Notes under the pieces: model-generated
The model's database searches: none
The model's input: the letters and a program-made list of their open reading frames with translations, nothing else
Told to the model about the DNA's origin: nothing
Position numbers and translations under genes: made by a program
In this document: positions 25,581 through 34,907 of the stretch, one piece after another
Position numbering within the stretch: position 1 is the stretch's first letter
Layout of the letters: each line of letters opens with the position of its first letter
NCBI RefSeq assembly: GCF_036186745.1
Contig: NZ_CP108086.1
Coordinates: forward strand, 4,836,001-4,900,000
DNA length: 64,000 nucleotides
Direction: 5' to 3'
Source: Microbispora hainanensis
GTDB taxonomy: Bacteria > Actinomycetota > Actinomycetes > Streptosporangiales > Streptosporangiaceae

Positions 25581-26000
25581 CTAGAGGAAGGGCAGGTAGA
25601 ACGCCGCGGCGAGGACGACCGCCCCGGCGCCGAGGATCACGGGGGAGCGATACCAGGCGGCGTCTCCCGCCAGCGCGTCGTCCGAGACGGACGCGTCGCT
25701 CAGGCCGTAGACGAGCCCGCGCAGCTCGCTCTCCGGCTTGGGGGTGGTGGCGAGCGTGACCACGACGGAGACGACCGCGTCGACCACGAAGGCGATGCCG
25801 GCGCCCCAGAAGCTCGCGTTCAGCTCGGTGCCGAAGCCGAACACGCCCGCTTTGTAGAGGATGTACGAGGCGAAGGCGCAGACCGTGCCGCTCAGCAGGC
25901 CCCAGAAGCCCGCCCAGGCGGTCATCCGCCGCCAGAACAGGCCGATGATGAACGTCGCGAACAGCGGGGCGTTGAAGAACGAGAACAGCGACTGCAGGTA
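25581..26000 (-). pseudogene. Sodium:solute symporter, C-terminal fragment
   Basis: The frame from about 26000 to the TAG at 25581 encodes the last 136 residues of an SSS-family symporter, beginning YLQ-SLFSFFNAPLFATFIIGLFWRRMTAWAG and with further membrane helices to YLPFL. The matching N-terminal part is at 33592-34907, 7.6 kb away. Joining the two across a shared TA gives an uninterrupted N-Y-L-Q-S-L-F frame. The upstream extension of this reading frame into the element is not part of the protein. Confidence 0.85.
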
Positions 26001-26168
26001 GAACAGTCCTAGATGACGTTCTTCCTTCCCCCAGGAGATCACATGCTCAGGCTCGCGGACTCGATCCCCGTCGTGTCCTACGCGCGCATCTCGGCGGACA
26101 CGAAGAGAGACGAGCACGGCGTACGGGACCAGCACAAGGTCAACCGGGAGACGGCTGCCCGGCACGGC

Positions 26169-27559
26169 GGGACTGTACAAACAACGGTGTAACTCCTGAT
26201 CAAGGAGACACCTGTGACGAGTACGGTGATCCAGCAGTCTGAGGCGCTGGACCTGGAGGACACCGCGGTGGCGCGGAAAGAGCATGAGGCGTCGGATCGT
26301 GAGCTGGTGGCCCGCCTGGTCGGCCAGGCCCGCGCCGAGGGGCTGGAGCTGGTCGGGGAGAACGGGCTGCTGGGCCGGCTGACCAAGCTGGTTTTGGAGT
26401 CGGCCCTGGAAGGCGAGCTGACCGACCACCTCGGCTACGACAAGCATGATCCGGCCGGTCGCGGCAGCGGCAACTCCCGTAACGGCACCCGGACCAAGAC
26501 GGTCATCACCGACGTCGGGCCGGTCGAGATCGACGTGCCTCGGGATCGGGACGCCAGCTTCGAACCGAAGATCGTGCGCAAGCGGCAGCGGCGGCTGCCG
26601 GGTGTGGATGAGATGGTCATCTCGCTGGCCGCCAAGGGCCTGACCACCGGGGAGATCTCGGCGCACCTGGCCGAGGTCTACGGGGCGGAGGTGTCCAAGC
26701 AGACCATCTCCACGATCACCGACGCGGTGATCGAGGGCATGGCCGAGTGGCAGAACCGCCCTCTGGATCCCGTCTACCCGGTGGTGTTCATCGACGCCAT
26801 CCACGTCAAGATCCGTGATGGGCAGGTGGCCAACCGGCCGATCTATGTGGCGTTGGCGGTCACCGCCGACGGTGAGCGCGACATTCTCGGGTTGTGGGCC
26901 GGCGACGGCGGTGAGGGCGCCAAGTTCTGGCTGCACGTGCTGACCGAGATCAAGAACCGGGGCGTCGCCGATGTGCTCATGATGGTCTGCGACGGCCTCA
27001 AAGGGCTGCCGCAGGCCATCGAGCAGGTCTGGCCGCAGACCGTGGTGCAGACCTGCGTGGTGCACCTGCTGCGCGCTTCCTTCCGCTACGCCGCACGCCA
27101 GCACTGGGACGCCATCGCCAAGGCGCTGCGGCCGGTCTACACCGCCCCGACCGAGGCCGCCGCGCTCGAGCGGTTCGCCGAGTTCGCCGAGGTCTGGGGC
27201 GGCAAGTACCCGGCGATCGTGAAGTTGTGGCAGGACGCCTGGGCGGAGTTCGTGCCGTTCCTGTCCTTTGATGTGGAGATCCGCCGGGTGATCTGCTCGA
27301 CGAACGCGATCGAGTCGGTCAACGCCCGGATCCGTCGGGCGGTCAAGGCCCGCGGCCACTTCCCCAACGAGCAGGCCGCGCTCAAGTGCGTCTACATGGC
27401 CATCATGAGCCTGGACCCGACGGGCAAGGGCCGCAAACGCTGGATGAACCGGTGGAAGGCCGCCCTGAACGCCTTCGAGATCACCTTCGAAGGCCGACTG
27501 TCAGCAACCCGCCGCTAGAACAAACCGAAGCCGAGTTACACCGTTCGCTGGACAGGCCC
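26169..27559 (+). mobile_element. IS256-family insertion sequence, second type
   Basis: About 1391 bp. Ends GGGACTGTACAAACAACGG (left) and GGGCCTGTCCAGCGAACGG (right, reversed) share ACGGTGTAACTC immediately inside, giving about 28-bp imperfect inverted repeats. Flanks GGCACGGC (26161-26168) and GGCACGGG (27560-27567) look like a target duplication with one change. A run of seven G follows the right copy and disturbs the recombinase frame. Confidence 0.85.
26214..27518 (+). CDS. IS256-family transposase (second type)
   Basis: Encodes 434 residues from GTG behind AAGGAG. DDE residues sit in VVFIDAIHVKIRDGQ (D), MMVCDGLKGLPQAIE (D) and STNAIESVNARIRRAVKARGHFP (E); C/V-H motif TCVVHLLRASFRYAA is present. 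The N-terminal GNSRNGTRTKTVITDVGPVEIDVPRDR is typical of the IS256 mutator group. It is only distantly similar to the other IS256-type transposase in this window. The frame is intact. Confidence 0.92.
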   Translation: MTSTVIQQSEALDLEDTAVARKEHEASDRELVARLVGQARAEGLELVGENGLLGRLTKLVLESALEGELTDHLGYDKHDPAGRGSGNSRNGTRTKTVITDVGPVEIDVPRDRDASFEPKIVRKRQRRLPGVDEMVISLAAKGLTTGEISAHLAEVYGAEVSKQTISTITDAVIEGMAEWQNRPLDPVYPVVFIDAIHVKIRDGQVANRPIYVALAVTADGERDILGLWAGDGGEGAKFWLHVLTEIKNRGVADVLMMVCDGLKGLPQAIEQVWPQTVVQTCVVHLLRASFRYAARQHWDAIAKALRPVYTAPTEAAALERFAEFAEVWGGKYPAIVKLWQDAWAEFVPFLSFDVEIRRVICSTNAIESVNARIRRAVKARGHFPNEQAALKCVYMAIMSLDPTGKGRKRWMNRWKAALNAFEITFEGRLSATRR

Positions 27560-28361
27560 GGCACGGGGGGGCTGGACCGTCGTGCACGAGTTCACGGACA
27601 ACGACAAGTCTGCTGCCAAAGCCGATGTCGTGCGTGACGATTTCGAGGCCATGTTGAAGGCGCTCCGCGCGGGCAAGCTCGATGACGGCACGTCGGTTCG
27701 CGGGGTGGTGGTCGTGGCCGATGACCGCCTGACCCGTCGCCCTGGCGACTACGAGCGCTTCGTAGAGGCGTTCACCTACAACGACGGGTTCGTGTTCGCC
27801 GACGCCAAGCAGACCAAGAACCTGTACAGCGAAGACGTCGAGAGCATGGGCCTGTGAGCAATCGTCAAGACCTGTGGATCACGAGTTCCTAAGCAGCTGC
27901 TGGTGAGGGCTGATCGTCGGGGCGTTCGACGAGCTTGCCGTTGACGAAGGTGGCCCCGGCGCGGACCAGGGCGACGAGGTGGGGGGCGTTGACCGCGCGC
28001 CAGCGGGCCTGGGCCGACTCGATCAGCTTGAACGCCATGGCCAGCCCGGCCGCCCGTGAACCGGGGCCTTTGGTGACCTTGGTGCGGTGCCGCACGGTGG
28101 CGAACGTCGACTCGATGGGGTTGGTCGTGCGCAGATGCACCCAATGCTCGGCTGGGAAGTCGTAGAACGCTAGCAACTCGTCCACGTCGTCGACGACCTT
28201 GGCCACGGCCTTGCCGTACTTGGCCCCGTAAGCGGCCTGGAACGCCTTCACCGCCGCCAGGGCGTGGTCTTTGTCCTCGGCGTTCCAGATCTCCGCCAAC
28301 GCCTTCTTCGCGCCGCTCTGTGCGGACTTCGGCATGGCTCCCAGCACGTTGGCGATTTTGT

Positions 28362-30535
28362 GAAGCCGTAAAAGATCAACTTGTCGGTGTGTCGCGGTCG
28401 TTTGGCACTGCGGCGAGCAGATTTGCTGCAGTGCGGTATCGGATTGGCGCGTCGGGGGGAATGTGGCCTGCTTGCTGGAGCAGGGGACGGGTTTCGCGGA
28501 TGACGTTGCCGATGGACGATCTGCTGACATCGCCTAGAACGTCGGCCAGGACATCCATCGTGCAGAGTTTCCGCTGGTAGAGAATCGTGAGCACGACCCG
28601 TTCGCTGTTGCTGATCTTCTGGGGGAAGACGCCGGATCGGGTCCCGGGCTGGCGGTGCCCGCCCCGCCGCTGGTAGCCGAGGCGCTCGCCTTGAGCGACC
28701 TGTGCTGCGGCGAGGCGCTGGATGAGGAGACGGAGTTCGTCGCGGCTGATCCCGGTCAGAACCGGATGGGATAGTTGATCGATGATCACGGCTCGTGCGG
28801 GGCGCTGGCCGGTGTCCAAGAAGCCGAGGAGAGCGGCGGGTTTGGCGAAGCGGACCTGAGCGGCTCCGGCGTGGTGGCCGTGGTCTTCCAAGACTCTGCG
28901 GGTCTCCTTCACCAGGTCGGCGATGCAGACGTCGGTGACCTCCAGAAGGTCGGCCAGGACCTTCATGGAACAGACCTGCCGCTGGTAGAGGAGCGTGAGC
29001 AGGAGGCGGGCGGCGGCGTCGAACAAGGGCTTGGCGCGGAGGTTGCCGGTGGCGCGCCGAGCTCGGCCGCCGCGTTGCCGGCTGTGCCGTTCCTGGGTGC
29101 GGGCGGCCTGTGCAGGCGCGAGCGCGGTGGCCAGCTGGCGTAGTTGAGGGGTGCTCATGCCGGTCAGCCGCGGATCGGCCAGACGCAGCAGCATGGCCTG
29201 GCGCCGCTGCGCGGGTCCGTCGCCCTCGCTCACCGGCTGGGACGTGGCCGGGTCGTCGGCCATTACTGGGCGCAGGGTGTAGTTCCAGGTGCCGTGGGTG
29301 GCGTGTCGTTCCAGGGGCAGGGCGGCGAAGCGCTCCTTGCTGATCGCGACACCGGTCGGGTAGTCGCCGGTGTCCAAAACCGCCTCCACCCGCAGTCCGG
29401 TACTGGTCTGGGTGGAAGCGATGGTGTTGACCACTACGTCATGACTGGTCAGGGGCCTGCCGCGCCAGTTGAGGGTGATGTGGGAGAACAGCCGGTGCTC
29501 GATCTTGTTCCATTTGGAGGTGCCGGGCGGGAAGTGACAGACCGTGATCACCAGCCCGGTCTCGGCGGCCAACGCGGCCAGTTCGCTCTTCCAGACCCGA
29601 TAACGGTAACCGTTGGAGCCGCCCGCGTCCGCAGTGATCAGTAGCCGTGAGGCGGACGGGTAGTCGTGGCGGCCGCGCGCTTTCCACCAGCGGCGGATGG
29701 ACTCCACCGCGAACACCGAGGTGTCATGGTCGACACCGACGTTCACCCAGCCGGTGTTGGCCGTGATGTCGTAGATCCCGTACGGGATCGCCTGCTCGAC
29801 GTCCGGACCGGAGAAGAAGAAGTGGTGGTCTTCGACCTCGATCGGCTCGCCCCTGGGGCGCCACTCGCGTCCGGTCATCGGGAGCCGGCCCAGCTGTTCC
29901 CGCTTCTTGGTGTCCACGCTGATCACCGGCTCGCCGTCAGCCTGATGGGCTTTGACCTGCTCGTTGATATAGCGGAACTGGGCGTCACGGTCGGGGTGCT
30001 GGGCGCCTTCGAGGGTCTTGACGTTGGCTTGCAGGCTGAACCCGGCCGTCTTCAGCAATCGTCCTACCGTGGGCGCCGATACACCGTGTCCTTGCCGGGT
30101 CAGCTCGGCGGCCAGGTGGCGTAGCGACTTGGTCGTCCACCGCAGCGGGGACTGCGGGTCGCCGCGCTCATCCGGCTCCACCAGCCCCAGCAGCGCCGTC
30201 AGGACGGCCGGATCGTCGTCTTCAACACGCTTGCGACCACCCCCGGATCGTCGGACACGACCTGCCGGAAGCGGCTTCCGGCCTTCTTCCAGCTCGAAGA
30301 TGCCGTTACGGACGGTCGTCTCGCTGACCCCAGCGGCCTGAGCGACAGCCCGCACCCCACCGTGTCCCAGCAGCCGCGCCTCGGTCGCCAGCACCAGCCG
30401 ATGCTGTCGTTCGTTCAGATGCGGGCGTAATGCCTCGAATTTCCGCGCGAGTTGGCCGCGGACCTCGCTGGAGATCGCCATACCATCTCAACGAGCCGAA
30501 GATCACGAAGCAACGCCTTATTTCTTGACGGCTTC
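28362..30535 (-). mobile_element. ISAzo13-like insertion sequence nested in IS256 copy 2
   Basis: About 2174 bp. Comparison with the intact IS256 copy fixes the ends: GAAGCCGTAAAAG at the left and, reversed, GAAGCCGTCAAGAA at the right, flanked by TGT on both sides (28359-28361 and 30536-30538), a 3-bp target duplication. One large transposase gene fills it. Confidence 0.85.
28376..30481 (-). CDS. ISAzo13-family transposase with duplicated C-terminal module
   Basis: Encodes 701 residues, far longer than the usual 400 or so. The N-terminal two thirds match ISAzo13-type DDE transposases: helix-turn-helix VRAVAQAAGVSETTVRNGI, then EPVISVDTKKREQLG (D), LLITADAGGSNGYRYRVWK (D), FPPGTSKWNKIEHRLFSHI (E). 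From residue about 440 there is an extension made of two homologous modules of about 135 residues, each ending in a winged-helix-like stretch (LLLTLLYQRQVCSMKVLADL at about 493; VVLTILYQRKLCTMDVLADV at about 629). The frame is intact and the element may be active. Confidence 0.88.
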   Translation of the reverse strand: MAISSEVRGQLARKFEALRPHLNERQHRLVLATEARLLGHGGVRAVAQAAGVSETTVRNGIFELEEGRKPLPAGRVRRSGGGRKRVEDDDPAVLTALLGLVEPDERGDPQSPLRWTTKSLRHLAAELTRQGHGVSAPTVGRLLKTAGFSLQANVKTLEGAQHPDRDAQFRYINEQVKAHQADGEPVISVDTKKREQLGRLPMTGREWRPRGEPIEVEDHHFFFSGPDVEQAIPYGIYDITANTGWVNVGVDHDTSVFAVESIRRWWKARGRHDYPSASRLLITADAGGSNGYRYRVWKSELAALAAETGLVITVCHFPPGTSKWNKIEHRLFSHITLNWRGRPLTSHDVVVNTIASTQTSTGLRVEAVLDTGDYPTGVAISKERFAALPLERHATHGTWNYTLRPVMADDPATSQPVSEGDGPAQRRQAMLLRLADPRLTGMSTPQLRQLATALAPAQAARTQERHSRQRGGRARRATGNLRAKPLFDAAARLLLTLLYQRQVCSMKVLADLLEVTDVCIADLVKETRRVLEDHGHHAGAAQVRFAKPAALLGFLDTGQRPARAVIIDQLSHPVLTGISRDELRLLIQRLAAAQVAQGERLGYQRRGGHRQPGTRSGVFPQKISNSERVVLTILYQRKLCTMDVLADVLGDVSRSSIGNVIRETRPLLQQAGHIPPDAPIRYRTAANLLAAVPNDRDTPTS

Positions 30536-31501
30536 TGTGAAACCAGCACCTTTGAGCCCTGGCCTGCGGGAACACCTCACCGAGGGCGGCCCAGAACCCC
30601 AGTGCGCCGTCCCCGACGGCCAGCACCGGCGCGCGCATCCCCCGCCGTTTGCAATCGCGCAGCAGGTCGGCCCACGACTCGGTCGACTCGCGGTAGCCGT
30701 CGGACAGCGCGATGAGCTCCTTACGGCCGTCGGCGCGCACGCCGATCATCACCAGCAGGCACAAACGGTGCTCCTCCAGGCGGACGTTGACGTGCACCCC
30801 GTCGGCCCACAGGTAGACGTAGTCCACGCCCGACAGGTCACGGTCGGCGAAGGCGCGCTGCTCGGCCTTCCACTGCTCGGTCAGCTTCGTGATGACCGGC
30901 GCCGACAGGCCGGCCGCCGAGCCGAGGAACTGCCCCAGCGCTGGGACGAAGTCACCGGAGGACAGGCCGTGCAGGTAGAGCAAGGGCAGCACTTCGGTGA
31001 TCTTCGGTGTCTTGCGCGCCCAGGGCGGCAGGATCGCCGAGGAGAAGCGTTTGCGCTCGCCGGTGACCTTATCGACGCGCTTGTCGTTGACGCGCGGCGC
31101 GCGGACCTCGATGGCGCCGGCCGCGGTGAGCACCTCGCGCGGGGCGTGGTAGCCGTTACGCACGACCAGACGGCGCCCATCGTCGTCACGCTGATCGGAG
31201 AACTGGGCGATATAGGCGTCGACTTCGGCTTTGAGCGCTTCGGCGAGCATCCTGCGGGCGCCTTCCCGGACGATCTCGTCGATCAGGGAGGAGGAGACCG
31301 GGGCGTCTGCGGTACGGCGGTCGCCGTCAGCGGGGTCAGGGACTACGGTGAGCACGGGTGTGCCTTCCCGACCGACGTTGGCGCGTCGGTCATGCATGAG
31401 ACCTACATGATCATCGGGAAGGTACACCCTGAACCACTCCGACTTTCGTGGAGGCCCTGAAGCCAGCATCATCTGCTGGCGGAAGGGAGAATCACGTCAC
31501 G

Positions 31502-31822
31502 ATGCCAGCCCCGAGGAAATACCCCCAAGAGCTTCGCGAGCGCGCGGTCCGCATGGTCTTTGAGGTCCGCCGGCAGACCGGCGGCGCCCCCGGCGCGATC
31601 GCCCGGGTGGCCGACCAGCTCGGCGTTCACCGCGAGGCGCTGCGCGGGTGGGTGCGCCAGGCCGAGATCGACGAGGGGCAGCGGCCGGGCACCTCGACCA
31701 CCGACGCCCAGCGGATCGCCGAGTTGGAGCGCGAGGTGCGCGAGCTGCGCCGCGCCAACGAGATCCTCAAGGCCGCGGCCGCTTTTTTCGCGGCCGAACT
31801 CGACCCCCGGCCGCCCAGGTAG
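31502..31822 (+). CDS. IS3-family transposase OrfA
   Basis: Encodes 106 residues: an N-terminal helix-turn-helix (YPQELRERAVRMVFE, ARVADQLGVHREALRGWVRQAE) and a C-terminal leucine-zipper-like helix (TDAQRIAELEREVRELRRANEILKAAAAFF). At 31783-31789 the mRNA carries T_TTT_TTC in the zero frame, a standard slippery heptamer for -1 shifting into OrfB, giving the OrfAB fusion transposase. Confidence 0.9.
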   Translation: MPAPRKYPQELRERAVRMVFEVRRQTGGAPGAIARVADQLGVHREALRGWVRQAEIDEGQRPGTSTTDAQRIAELEREVRELRRANEILKAAAAFFAAELDPRPPR

Positions 31823-32721
31823 TCGCCTTCATCGACGCTCACCGCGGCGCTTTCGGCGTCGAGCCGATCTGCCAGGTGTTGCAGGTGGCGACGTCGACGT
31901 ACTACGCGGCCAAGTCCCGTCCGCCCTCAGCCCGGCAGGTGCGGGACGCCCAGCTCATGGCCGAGATCACCACGGTGTGGAACGAGAACTTCGAGGTGTA
32001 TGGCGTGCGCAAGATGTGGAAGGAGCTCAACCGGCGCGGCACCCGCGTGGCCCGCTGTACCGTGGCCCGGCTGATGAAGCGCCTGGGGCTGGCCGGGGCG
32101 GTTCGCGGGGACCACAAGCGACCGACCACGATCCCCGATGCTCTCATTGACCGGCCCGCCGACCTGGTCAAACGCGACTTCACCGCCCCCTCCCCCAACC
32201 GGTTGTGGGTCGCCGACCTGACCTACATCCCCACCGCGTCGGGGTTCGTGTACGCGGCGCTGGTGATCGACGCGTTCTCGCGGATGATCGTCGGGTGGCG
32301 TCTGGCCGATCATCTGCGCACCGACCTGGCGCTGGACGCGCTGGAGATGGCCATCTGGCGTCGCGGAGACGGACGGCGGCTGGAGGGCCTGGTGCACCAC
32401 TCCGACCGCGGCTGCCAGTATCTGTCGATTCGCTACACCGAGCGCCTGTCGGGTGCCGGGGCGGTCTGCTCGGTCGGATCTCGAGGGGACAGCTATGACA
32501 ACGCCTTGGCCGAAAGCACCATCGGGCTGTACAAGACCGAGCTGATCCACCGGCGCGGCCCGTGGAACGGCCTGGACGACGTCGAGATCGCCACCATGGA
32601 ATGGGTCGACTGGTACAACAACCGGCGCCTCCACAGCGCCTGCAACGACCTTCCACCAGCCGAATTCGAGACCCACTACCGAACCCAAACCGCCCCGGCT
32701 ATCCTCACCCCAGCCAGCTAA
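31780..32721 (+). CDS. IS3-family transposase OrfB (DDE domain), made by -1 frameshift
   Basis: The frame continues from the slippery site as RGRTRPPAAQVVAFIDAHRG and carries the IS3 HTH_21 segment (YGVRKMWKELNRRG) and rve integrase core: D in LWVADLTYIPT, D in LVHHSDRGCQYLS, E in SYDNALAESTIGLYKTEL. The frame is open from 31648, but only the part past the shift is homologous. No damage is visible, so the IS may be active. Confidence 0.9.
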   Translation, partial: RFFRGRTRPPAAQVVAFIDAHRGAFGVEPICQVLQVATSTYYAAKSRPPSARQVRDAQLMAEITTVWNENFEVYGVRKMWKELNRRGTRVARCTVARLMKRLGLAGAVRGDHKRPTTIPDALIDRPADLVKRDFTAPSPNRLWVADLTYIPTASGFVYAALVIDAFSRMIVGWRLADHLRTDLALDALEMAIWRRGDGRRLEGLVHHSDRGCQYLSIRYTERLSGAGAVCSVGSRGDSYDNALAESTIGLYKTELIHRRGPWNGLDDVEIATMEWVDWYNNRRLHSACNDLPPAEFETHYRTQTAPAILTPAS

Positions 32722-32772
32722 CCCGGCCTCCACGAAACTCGGCGCGGTTCAGCACCGAGAGTCCGGCCGTGT

Positions 32773-33171
32773 ATGTCTCTGCACAGTACGCACCGAGCGG
32801 AAGTTTCATCGACGATGCCTGGGACGAATGTTGATCCAAATCCGGCGTCCAATCCTACCCGGCGATGGGAGGACACTGACGAGGTTCGAGTGGAGGCAAC
32901 TCTTCTCGTAAAGCCTCTCGGTCCTCTTCCTCGAAAGGTGTTGGCAGCGCTCAGTCAAACTCCATCAGTGGCTATTGAAGCCGTCGAACTTGCATCAACT
33001 CTGGATGCTCCGACAGACGAAGTTCAGAGTGCGGTGAATCGCATCAACAGTTTCGCCGAGGCGTTCGGCTTCGTCCCGCTGATCTCAGCTCATGAAAGCG
33101 GTCGCTTCTTCATCGACCCTCCTGCTGCGAGGGTTGTCAATGCGGCTCTAGAGAAGACTGAGCGTCGTTAG
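32773..33171 (+). CDS. Hypothetical cargo protein of the serine-recombinase element
   Basis: Predicted up to 132 residues (alternative ATG 32815). The recognisable core from residue about 40 is VRVEATLLVKPLGPLPRKVL then AALSQTPSVAIEAVELASTL DAPTDEVQSAVNRINSFAEAFGFVPLIS, which reads like a winged-helix domain (helix, helix, then a turn). GC is markedly lower than chromosomal genes. It lies 20 bp from the IS3 end, so its promoter or 5' end may have been removed. A hairpin follows directly. It may have been a small regulator or directionality factor (guess). Confidence 0.5.
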   Translation: MSLHSTHRAEVSSTMPGTNVDPNPASNPTRRWEDTDEVRVEATLLVKPLGPLPRKVLAALSQTPSVAIEAVELASTLDAPTDEVQSAVNRINSFAEAFGFVPLISAHESGRFFIDPPAARVVNAALEKTERR

Positions 33172-33179
33172 GAGAAATG

Positions 33180-33213
33180 GAACAGGGAGCCTCCTTGATG
33201 AGGCTCCCTGTTC
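33180..33213 (+). terminator. Strong hairpin terminator after the cargo gene
   Basis: Perfect 14-bp arms GAACAGGGAGCCTC and GAGGCTCCCTGTTC with a 6-base loop CTTGAT, beginning 9 bp after the stop codon. No T run follows. Confidence 0.75.
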
Positions 33214-33591
33214 GCATTCCCTGGTGGCACATGTACGTAGGAACATCGGCCCCCTGCTTGGAACGCTCGGCATCGGGGGTTTGGCGGTTCGTGGGCCGCT
33301 GCCCGCGGGGCGGCGCGGGCCGGGACCGGCCCCCCAGGCCGCATGCCCGGCCCGCTGGCCGCCCGGAGTGGGCGGGCGGCGGGCGAGCGAAGCGAGCCCC
33401 TTGACCCTGTAGTGAGGATTCTCGCCGAATCGGCTCTTGGCGGACTGGACGATCAGATGCCCGGCGTCCCTGTCGGTGTGCCTCGCCGGGTGATTGCCCT
33501 GCTAGATGCCCGTTCGTGGCTGCCGGTGCTGCGTCTTGACGCTCTTGAGCGATGTCACGCGAAAGAGTTGCGTGATTGCATGTTCTGGAGA
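33214..33591. other. Right end of the integrated element, no gene recognised
   Basis: About 380 bp. The first part is extremely GC-rich with a GAGCGAAGCGAGC motif common in actinobacterial plasmids and ICEs (33383-33396 region). The frames toward 33591 give no recognisable protein. It ends in the att junction with the symporter gene. Confidence 0.45.
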
Positions 33592-34907
33592 TAATTCATG
33601 ATGTTGCCGAACCCGGCGGCGATGAACGCCGTGCCGATTCCGGCGAGGACGCCGACCACGGTGGCGATCCGGCCGAGCCGCACGTACCACTCGTCGGGGT
33701 GGTCGCCGTTGACGTGCGCCTTCCAGATGTCCTGGGTGAAGACCGTGTTGAAGCCGCTGATGTTGGCGGCCATCCCGGCCATGAACGACGCGAGCAGGCC
33801 GGTCACCGCGACACCGAGCACGCCGTTGGGCAGGAACTCGTTCATGAGCAGCGGGATCGCCTCGTTGTACGTCGGCCCGCCGTCCTTGCCGAGGTCGCCG
33901 AACAGCACGACCGCGATGAGACCGGGGATCACGGTGACGATCGGGATCACGAGCTTCGGGTAGGCCGCGACGATCGGGGTCAACCGGGCGGCGTTGGTGT
34001 TGCGGGCCGACAGCGCGCGCTGCACCTCGGCGAAGTTGGTGGTCCAGTAGCCGAAGGACAGCACGAACCCGAGGCCGAAGACCACGCCGATCCAGTTGGC
34101 GTTGAGCGGATTGTCTGTGCCGGCGGTGTGCGCCCAGGTGTGCAGCCCGCCCTCGCCGAGCACGCTCTGCCTGACCTTCTCGCCGAGGCCGGAGAAGCCG
34201 CCGACCCGGGTCAGGCCGATGACCACCACCGGCACGAGCCCGGCGACGATCACGAAGAACTGCATGACCTCGTTGTAGATCGCCGAGGACAGGCCGCCGA
34301 GCGTGATGTACGCCAGCACGATCGCGGCCGACACGATGATGGACAGCCACAGCGGCCAGCCGAGCAGGGCGTCCATGATGAGCGCCAGCGCGTACAGGTT
34401 GATCCCGGCGATGAGGATCTGCGCGACGGCGAAGGTCCCGGCGTTGAGCAACTGGGTCGCGCCGTTGAAGCGGCGGCGCATGAACTCCGGGACGCTGTGC
34501 ACCTTCGACCGGTAGTAGAACGGCATCATCACGACGCCGAGGAACACCATGGCGGGGACCGCGCCGATCCAGTAGTAGTGCAGCGTCATCGCGCCGTACT
34601 GCGCGCCGTTCGCCGCCATGCCGAGCACCTCGGTGGCGCCGAGGTTGGCGGACATGAAGGCCAGGCCGGTGATCCAGGCGGGGAGTGCGCGGCCCGAGAG
34701 GAAGAAGTCCAGACTCGTCCGTACGGCCCGTTTGGCGGCGAAGCCGATTCCCAGCACCACGACGAAGTACAGGGCGAGGATCACGTAGTCCAGGACGTTG
34801 ACGTCGAGCCGCAGATCCTGTGCGGCCAGCAATTGGGCATCAGGCACGCGACGGCGGCTACCCGAAGGTCGTGCCGTTTCACGCGGTATATCCAATCGTG
34901 ACGACAC
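33592..34907 (-). pseudogene. Sodium:solute symporter, N-terminal fragment
   Basis: Encodes about 441 symporter residues ending NIMNYLQ, after which nine element-coded residues and a stop follow (33555). About eleven membrane helices are present, with SSS features VVVLGIGFAAKRAVRTSLDFFLSGRALPAWITGL, LGATEVLGMAANGAQYG, and GLLASFMAGMAANISGFNTVFTQDI. The start is unclear: GTG at 34907 or 34847; neither has a good ribosome site. With the distal fragment the original protein would be about 557-577 residues, normal for the family. The truncated form lacks the last three or so helices and is probably non-functional. Confidence 0.85.

Follow-up and report, generated by a model that had tools for sequence, protein, structure and literature searches.

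Remnant of a large serine integrase element at a recurrently occupied site in a symporter gene of Microbispora hainanensis

How did a sodium/solute (SSS) symporter gene on the chromosome of Microbispora hainanensis come to lie in two halves, 7,593 bp apart? The gene is within a 64,000-nucleotide stretch of DNA that was analysed as a whole (the window). An earlier, sequence-only reading had described the two halves of one symporter, separated by 7.6 kb, and in our analysis both halves and both junctions lie where that reading had placed them:

25581..25995, minus strand: symporter 3′ half, 88.7–98.3% DNA identity over 396–400 bp to 11 uninterrupted Microbispora genes
25998..33590: remnant of the integrated element, 7,593 bp, missing at 20 of 25 orthologous sites
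33591..34907, minus strand: symporter 5′ half, to the junction Tyr codon (PF00474, E 3e-35; start codon approximate)

The flanks, when joined across the element, read in frame as NIMNYLQSLFSFFNAP. Compared with the uninterrupted gene, the rejoined 120 bp reach 97.5–99.2% identity in five Microbispora genomes and 89–94% in six more, in agreement with the in-frame NYLQSLF attB that the sequence-only reading had obtained by recombining the junctions. The 5′ half has 89–97% amino acid identity with 13 same-genus orthologues. The break falls at residue 440 of 578, and read-through from the 5′ half into the element adds the tail LQNMQSRNSFA before a stop. Judging from the cut and the short element-coded tail, symporter transport was probably lost through the insertion. 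An origin of the halves from two paralogues is ruled out, as all 11 uninterrupted Microbispora genes carry the two parts without a break.

We compared 25 orthologous sites. Twenty are uninterrupted, and five are occupied at one and the same codon, namely those of the window genome (G000), of two other Microbispora genomes (G009 and G004), and of Sphaerisporangium album and S. fuscum. The G004 assembly holds the 5′ half and no 3′ half, and is thus a one-ended witness. When 15 same-genus genomes are searched with a 578-residue query, the match extends through the junction up to the final residue in 11, it is split or cut at residue 444–446 in three (G000, G009, and G004), and G014 gives no symporter match. 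The comparison with uninterrupted homologues, proposed with the earlier reading as a check, gives YLQ at all 20 empty sites (19 NYLQ and one EYLQ) and NYLQSLF in all 11 Microbispora genes. Eight remoter homologues (L022–L029, 54–71% amino acid identity) likewise align through the junction. In-frame stops are present within the aligned stretch of two of the 11 uninterrupted Microbispora genes (G007 and G002) and in the 5′ half of G009, so the symporter copies are not necessarily all active.

On the symporter gene tree (25 rows), the occupied state takes four changes, three of which are forced by well-supported branches; some of the gains in this count could be replaced by losses. G004 is sister to G009 (support 100/99), and the occupation of these sister genomes may reflect one common insertion. 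The nearest neighbour of G000 is G012, in a weakly supported grouping (84/49). On this comparison, the spot in the symporter gene is a genuine landing site that is used repeatedly and is empty in most related species.

The element in G009 is complete. It is 9,925 bp long and encodes an intact large serine integrase of 510 residues, which matches PF00239 (4.7e-16) and PF07508 (1.2e-16), with the Zn-ribbon PF13408 under its cut-off. The S. album integrase likewise matches PF00239 and PF07508, and the window keeps PF00239 only. The presence of both domains in the intact relatives supports the enzyme class assigned in the sequence-only reading, and the search for a recombinase with an intact C-terminus finds it at the same codon of the same gene in G009, S. 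album, and S. fuscum. The integrase start codon is ~40 bp from the junction in these three genomes and in G000. The three complete elements are 6.7–9.9 kb long and free of IS sequences. Each carries a RepSA initiator (2.3e-161 in G009), which is partial in G004; the G009 protein scores 524 bits, below the NCBIfam RepSA equivalog cut-off of 700. No PF01580 match, indicative of an FtsK/SpoIIIE-type transfer gene, is found on the contigs carrying the G009, S. album, and S. fuscum elements, and no excision factor was identified for the symporter elements.

Compared with these relatives, the window element is a decayed remnant, whose former content we infer from them. Between the symporter halves, it comprises:

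26043..26176, plus strand: N-terminal piece of the large serine integrase (residues ~1–45), DNA match to the G009 element
26169..27559, plus strand: IS256-family insertion inside the integrase gene, transposase frame 26214–27518 (PF00872, E 2.2e-129)
27570..27857, plus strand: second piece of the large serine integrase, ending near residue 136 (286 bp aligned to the G009 integrase at 95.8% DNA identity)
27889..28370, minus strand: second IS256-family transposase, C-terminal part (approximate limits; PF00872 profile positions 254–354, E 9.4e-17)
28376..30481, minus strand: ISAzo13-family transposase frame, between both parts of the second IS256-family transposase (PF07592, E 2.9e-142)
30519..31472, minus strand: second IS256-family transposase, N-terminal part (approximate limits; PF00872 profile positions 19–262, E 1.3e-38)
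31448..32721, plus strand: IS3-family transposase, overlapping frames 31448–31822 and 31648–32721 (PF01527, E 2.7e-12; PF00665, E 2.5e-20)
32773..33171, plus strand: open frame of 132 residues, perhaps not a gene (no Pfam match at E 0.1)
33310..33588, minus strand: element distal end with the second attP arm, 84.3% identity (287 bp) to the G009 distal end

The recombinase pieces noted earlier in the window are indeed parts of an integrase. Positions 27582–27857 match PF00239 (E 7.8e-7). The short first piece has no Pfam match by itself, but it has 96% DNA identity to the start of the intact integrase, and positions 25999–26176 as a whole (178 bp) share 96.1% identity with the integrase end of the G009 element. 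The integrase is missing past residue ~136. The IS256-family insertion that interrupts it has inverted ends and an imperfect 8-bp flanking repeat, GGCACGGC/GGCACGGG (ends read by eye). The distal end is 79.5% identical to that of G004 over 273 bp, and a search of the window remnant for RepSA finds none.

A phage origin is not supported. The best match of the integrase among phage records is ~31%, viral contigs hold no relative of it, and phage structural genes are absent among the Pfam-scanned ORFs of the window, G009, and S. album. Fifteen records of the plasmid collection match, the best at 61.7% in a chromosome-sized Nonomuraea record, with nothing closer.

Among 341 family genomes, with four candidates scored in each, three full-length integrases reach at least 80% identity, and all three are in the symporter gene. 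They make up a single clade (support 100/99) in a tree of 48 of the 53 candidate rows; L115, L120, L124, L125, and L126 were left out as frameshifted, distant, or fragments. On this tree, one integrase clade is linked to the symporter gene. Remoter relatives sit in other genes, including msrA, aldo/keto reductase, metE, and others. Targets were assigned using Pfam for six of the seven typed or referenced flanks (five clear), using tblastn, and by eye for L098, L105–L108, L110, and L119. The target of L105–L108, which we take to be a chitinase, has no Pfam match. A tblastx clustering of the target flanks lumped 44 of 52 loci together and was set aside.

In one point, the position of the exchange, the earlier reading probably errs. 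That reading placed recombination at a TA dinucleotide shared by both junctions, and gave the attP inverted arms TGTTCT/AGAACA. TA is present at both junctions (33592–33593 and 25999–26000), and the arms are present in the reconstructed attP, but their centre is CT, 3 bp off TA:

25996..25997, minus strand: probable 2-bp crossover CT, integrase-side junction (attP symmetry; element end comparison)
33589..33590, minus strand: probable 2-bp crossover CT, distal junction (attP symmetry; TAT codon common to G012)

The tract common to both ends is very short, centred on CT or TA. We consider CT the more likely exchanged dinucleotide because of the attP symmetry, the host-type TAT codon, and the matched TT core in S. 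album, which has TT at both ends; TT is found at that place in three of eight empty Sphaerisporangium sites. The offset of +3 (CT) is the best within 10 bp in each of the four attP, and its summed score is reached by 5 of 5,000 joint-column shuffles, in a sample of four attP that are related to each other. For the msrA clade (18 loci with both ends, 14 entered, 13 placed), summed complementarity is 144/299 at +3 and 79/299 at TA, with a runner-up of 110 at −4; in the individual attP, +3 wins or ties in 8 of the 13, with best offsets ranging from −4 to +7. The same event with exchange at TA would make the 3-bp displacement of the symmetry centre a coincidence. TA is identical at both ends in 4/4 complete elements and at 20/20 empty sites, which speaks for such an exchange. 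However, the arm complementarity summed over the four attP is only 16/100 at TA versus 49/100 at CT, and an exchange at TA would derive the T of the window TAT codon from attP, yet the base is C in G009, S. album, and S. fuscum and T in G012, the nearest relative of the host. Exchange at TA is unlikely.

The course of events was very probably the following. A small element, encoding a large serine integrase and, as in its intact relatives, RepSA, recombined its attP with an attB in the symporter gene. The attB is at the Tyr-Leu codons of NYLQSLF, with the exchange most likely at CT (TT in S. album), the attP symmetry centre. Insertion truncates the symporter and appends the short element-coded tail. 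In the window, the integrase is split by an IS256-family element, its remainder and RepSA are missing, and the gap is occupied by other IS elements. The remnant is mostly IS sequence, so IS insertion and rearrangement might instead have split the symporter and brought in a recombinase fragment with no site-specific recombination. This is scarcely credible, since neither junction is at an IS end and both element ends match those of the three IS-free relatives, which occupy the identical codon in other species. A single ancient insertion, inherited and then cleanly lost in most species, is highly unlikely. Serine integrases together with an excision factor can excise cleanly, and G004 and G009 are sisters, but the occupied tips are scattered across two genera, with the changes counted above, and G000 sits amid seven empty close relatives. 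The junctions, the empty sites, the repeated occupation, and the integrase family can all be read from the sequences themselves, and we assign a probability of about 0.9 to integration of a serine-integrase element by attP × attB recombination within the symporter gene, now a remnant in the window.

For the integrase family as a whole, we lean slightly towards a switch of target gene with the attP arms kept, in which the symmetry centre would be fixed and the core alone would vary with the target (CT/TT for the symporter, CA for msrA). Among the msrA-targeting members, the distal attP arm would also be coding, giving msrA an element-borne C-terminus; the symporter branch would have the same arm layout but supply no more than a short tail followed by a stop. 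In these msrA-targeting relatives, the element brings a 3′ end with which msrA is regenerated, perhaps the more interesting lead.

The symporter locus provides a well-bounded new attP/attB pair, along with intact integrases (S. album and S. fuscum), for actinomycetes with few integration tools. Taken together, the symporter, msrA, and other branches are a natural set of related serine integrases that differ in target, and can serve to find out which changes in attP or protein shift a serine integrase between genes. We found no report of a symporter as serine-integrase target in open-access main texts, and nothing there contradicts the sequence-only reading, to which the site was not known as a described target. 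The target site is new, the kind of enzyme is already known, and the case is otherwise ordinary.

A computed catalogue of large serine recombinases covers the same enzyme class and likewise derives targets from comparison of empty and occupied sites; its site-specific clusters are predicted to use one to three target gene clusters (PMC10083194). The words 'symporter' and 'transporter' are absent from its main text, and the pair may already stand in its supplementary lists. Among actinobacterial integrative and conjugative elements (AICEs), 19 of 144 have a serine recombinase, some inserted in protein-coding genes (PMC3218068), and this subset resembles the symporter elements in having the integrase beside one attachment site, RepSA, and a protein-coding target. 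Of the AICE hallmarks, an integrase and a replication initiator (RepSA, RepAM, or Prim-pol), here RepSA, are both present in the complete symporter elements. Unlike the AICE subset, these three elements have no FtsK/SpoIIIE-type transfer protein and are small. The phiJoe/SCO2603 system of Streptomyces has a target gene of another kind, encoding a B12-binding radical SAM protein and used near its end, whereas the symporter is cut at about three quarters. As described in PMC5311408, its 2-bp crossover lies in the middle of an imperfect inverted repeat, and its elements similarly occupy one attB in several species with varying element content.

The window covers bases 4,836,001–4,900,000 of an 8.8-Mb contig, and within it a symporter gene is split into two parts:

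34907 to the junction near 33590, minus strand, 5′ part of the SSS symporter gene (PF00474 match)
junction near 25997 to 25581, minus strand, 3′ part of the SSS symporter gene

The full-length symporter gene of a relative scores above the TIGR00813 cut-off. When both flanks are joined by script, the in-frame NYLQSLF attB proposed in the sequence-only reading is obtained. The symporter is uninterrupted at this point in 11 of 15 Microbispora genomes (one, G014, gives no symporter match) and in 8 of 11 Sphaerisporangium genomes (two interrupted, one without a match). An alignment of 25 sites from the two genera and one further family member (L021) comprises 20 empty and 5 occupied sites, and YLQ is kept in all 20 empty sites, as predicted. 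The alignment is also continuous across the junction in eight more distant homologues (L022–L029). Some uninterrupted copies (G007, G002, and S281) have in-frame stops within the aligned stretch.

Three relatives carry complete elements. The Microbispora element (G009) is 9,925 bp long and encodes an intact 510-aa integrase and RepSA. The elements of S. album (~7.5 kb) and S. fuscum (~6.7 kb) encode RepSA and integrases 85% and 80–81% identical to that of G009, respectively. All three recombinases with an intact C-terminus sit in the same symporter gene, and the serine-integrase class first read from motifs is borne out by the domains that define a large serine integrase. What remains in a further Microbispora relative, G004, is the symporter 5′ half together with the distal end of the element and a partial RepSA gene; a search of its assembly found no symporter 3′ half. 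The symporter gene tree places G004 and G009 as sisters and requires four changes of the occupied label, three of them forced by well-supported branches. Repeated insertion at the symporter site is the simplest reading of this tree, though losses in place of some gains are possible.

The two integrase pieces in the window match the G009 integrase gene at 96.1% and 95.8%, and the distal 287 bp of the window's element match the G009 element at 84.3%. The pieces are separated by an IS256-family element that has inverted ends and is flanked by an imperfect 8-bp repeat. The integrase ends after about residue 136, the remainder being missing; no further pieces are found near the remnant at E 1e-20. 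The gap contains:

another IS256-family transposase, divided into two parts
an ISAzo13-family transposase between these two parts (frame at 28376–30481, 701 aa)
an IS3-family transposase

The 701-aa frame extends ~300 residues beyond the DDE domain, with further helix-turn-helix matches, and may be a fusion or include unrelated sequence. RepSA has four matches in the genome, none inside the window. Because the integrase is split and truncated and RepSA is missing, the element is unlikely to be movable by its own integrase. A further integrase fragment, located elsewhere in the genome (G000:C1:4729817-4730170, outside the window), is 77% identical over residues 6–123.

The crossover had been placed at TA, as the closest identical pair. 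Three bases further on (+3), CT is likewise identical at both ends. In the four reconstructed attP, arm complementarity is 49/100 about CT (TT in S. album) and 16/100 about TA; each attP taken singly also has its highest score within 10 bp at CT, and 5 of 5,000 joint-column shuffles attain 49 at their best offset. Thirteen attP of the msrA-targeting branch score 144/299 at the same place and 79/299 at TA, with a runner-up of 110 at −4; taken one at a time, 8 of 13 score highest at +3, alone or in a tie. The Tyr codon preceding CT reads TAT in the window and in its nearest neighbour (G012; a weak grouping, 84/49) and TAC on the element side, which fits host DNA extending up to CT. Both ends of the S. 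album element carry TT, which also occupies the core position in 3 of 8 empty Sphaerisporangium and 1 of 11 empty Microbispora sites. The attP symmetry and the TAT codon thus indicate that exchange probably occurs at CT, not TA.

We scored four candidates per genome in 341 family genomes, 42 of which have an integrase match at E 1e-180. Among the candidates scored, three full-length integrases reach at least 80% identity, those of G009, S. album, and S. fuscum, and each of them lies in the symporter; the next closest is 74% identical. In a 48-row tree the three form one clade (100/99), adjoining a Thermoactinospora integrase. Other branches target msrA (21 loci by tblastn and 2 by eye), an aldo/keto reductase gene (11 loci), and metE (2), with single cases in O6-methylguanine methyltransferase, acyl-CoA dehydrogenase, and HNH genes. 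The 10 target labels require 10 changes on the tree, the minimum being 9; target agrees with tree position. The best matches among phage records are near 31% identity, and a search of viral contigs for integrase relatives gave none.

Of the 23 msrA loci, 18 combine a full-length MsrA frame at the element's far end with a displaced msrA 3′ end next to the integrase (L078, L082, L087, L090, L091, L093, L102, L103, L109, L112–L118, L121, and L122); these elements carry a replacement msrA 3′ end. The regenerated tails read YLxRN in 18 of 18; among the displaced tails, several of which are decayed, 17 of 18 carry K in place of that R. The attP arm, CGCAAC or a close variant, supplies the Arg-Asn codons, so in this branch the arm seems to double as coding sequence and to restore the gene that the element enters. 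Several displaced 3′ ends occur in single loci (L084, L086, and four in L091), as if successive elements had entered the same site. Some Streptomycetaceae elements (L112, L114, and L118) are only ~2.4–2.7 kb end to end. In the window's own genome, a displaced msrA 3′ end (L127:2843-2938, outside the window) lies ~0.8 kb beyond the intact msrA and was perhaps left behind by an element that targeted this gene.

In the symporter branch, CGCAAC occupies the same position in the arm, but the frame stops after a few residues. At four of the five occupied sites (the window, G009, G004, and locus L076) the element-coded tail on the cut symporter ends in RNSFA or RNSSFA followed by a stop, and S. album reads on. 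The only differences between the G009 and window tails are synonymous third-position changes and the choice of stop codon, which may reflect selection on the tail or plain constraint on attP. Derivation of the symporter branch from an msrA-type branch is a guess, and the integrase tree does not show such descent.

The word 'symporter' is absent from the main text of PMC3218068, PMC5311408, and PMC10083194, and none of the papers listed by open-access main-text searches joining serine integrase with symporter or Microbispora was relevant. No FtsK-type transfer gene is found on the contigs carrying the three complete elements. Since integrase and RepSA are present and no such gene was found on these contigs, the symporter element is, judged by gene content, an AICE-like integrative element and not an AICE: it differs from AICEs in the FtsK-type gene and shares with them the integrase and RepSA.
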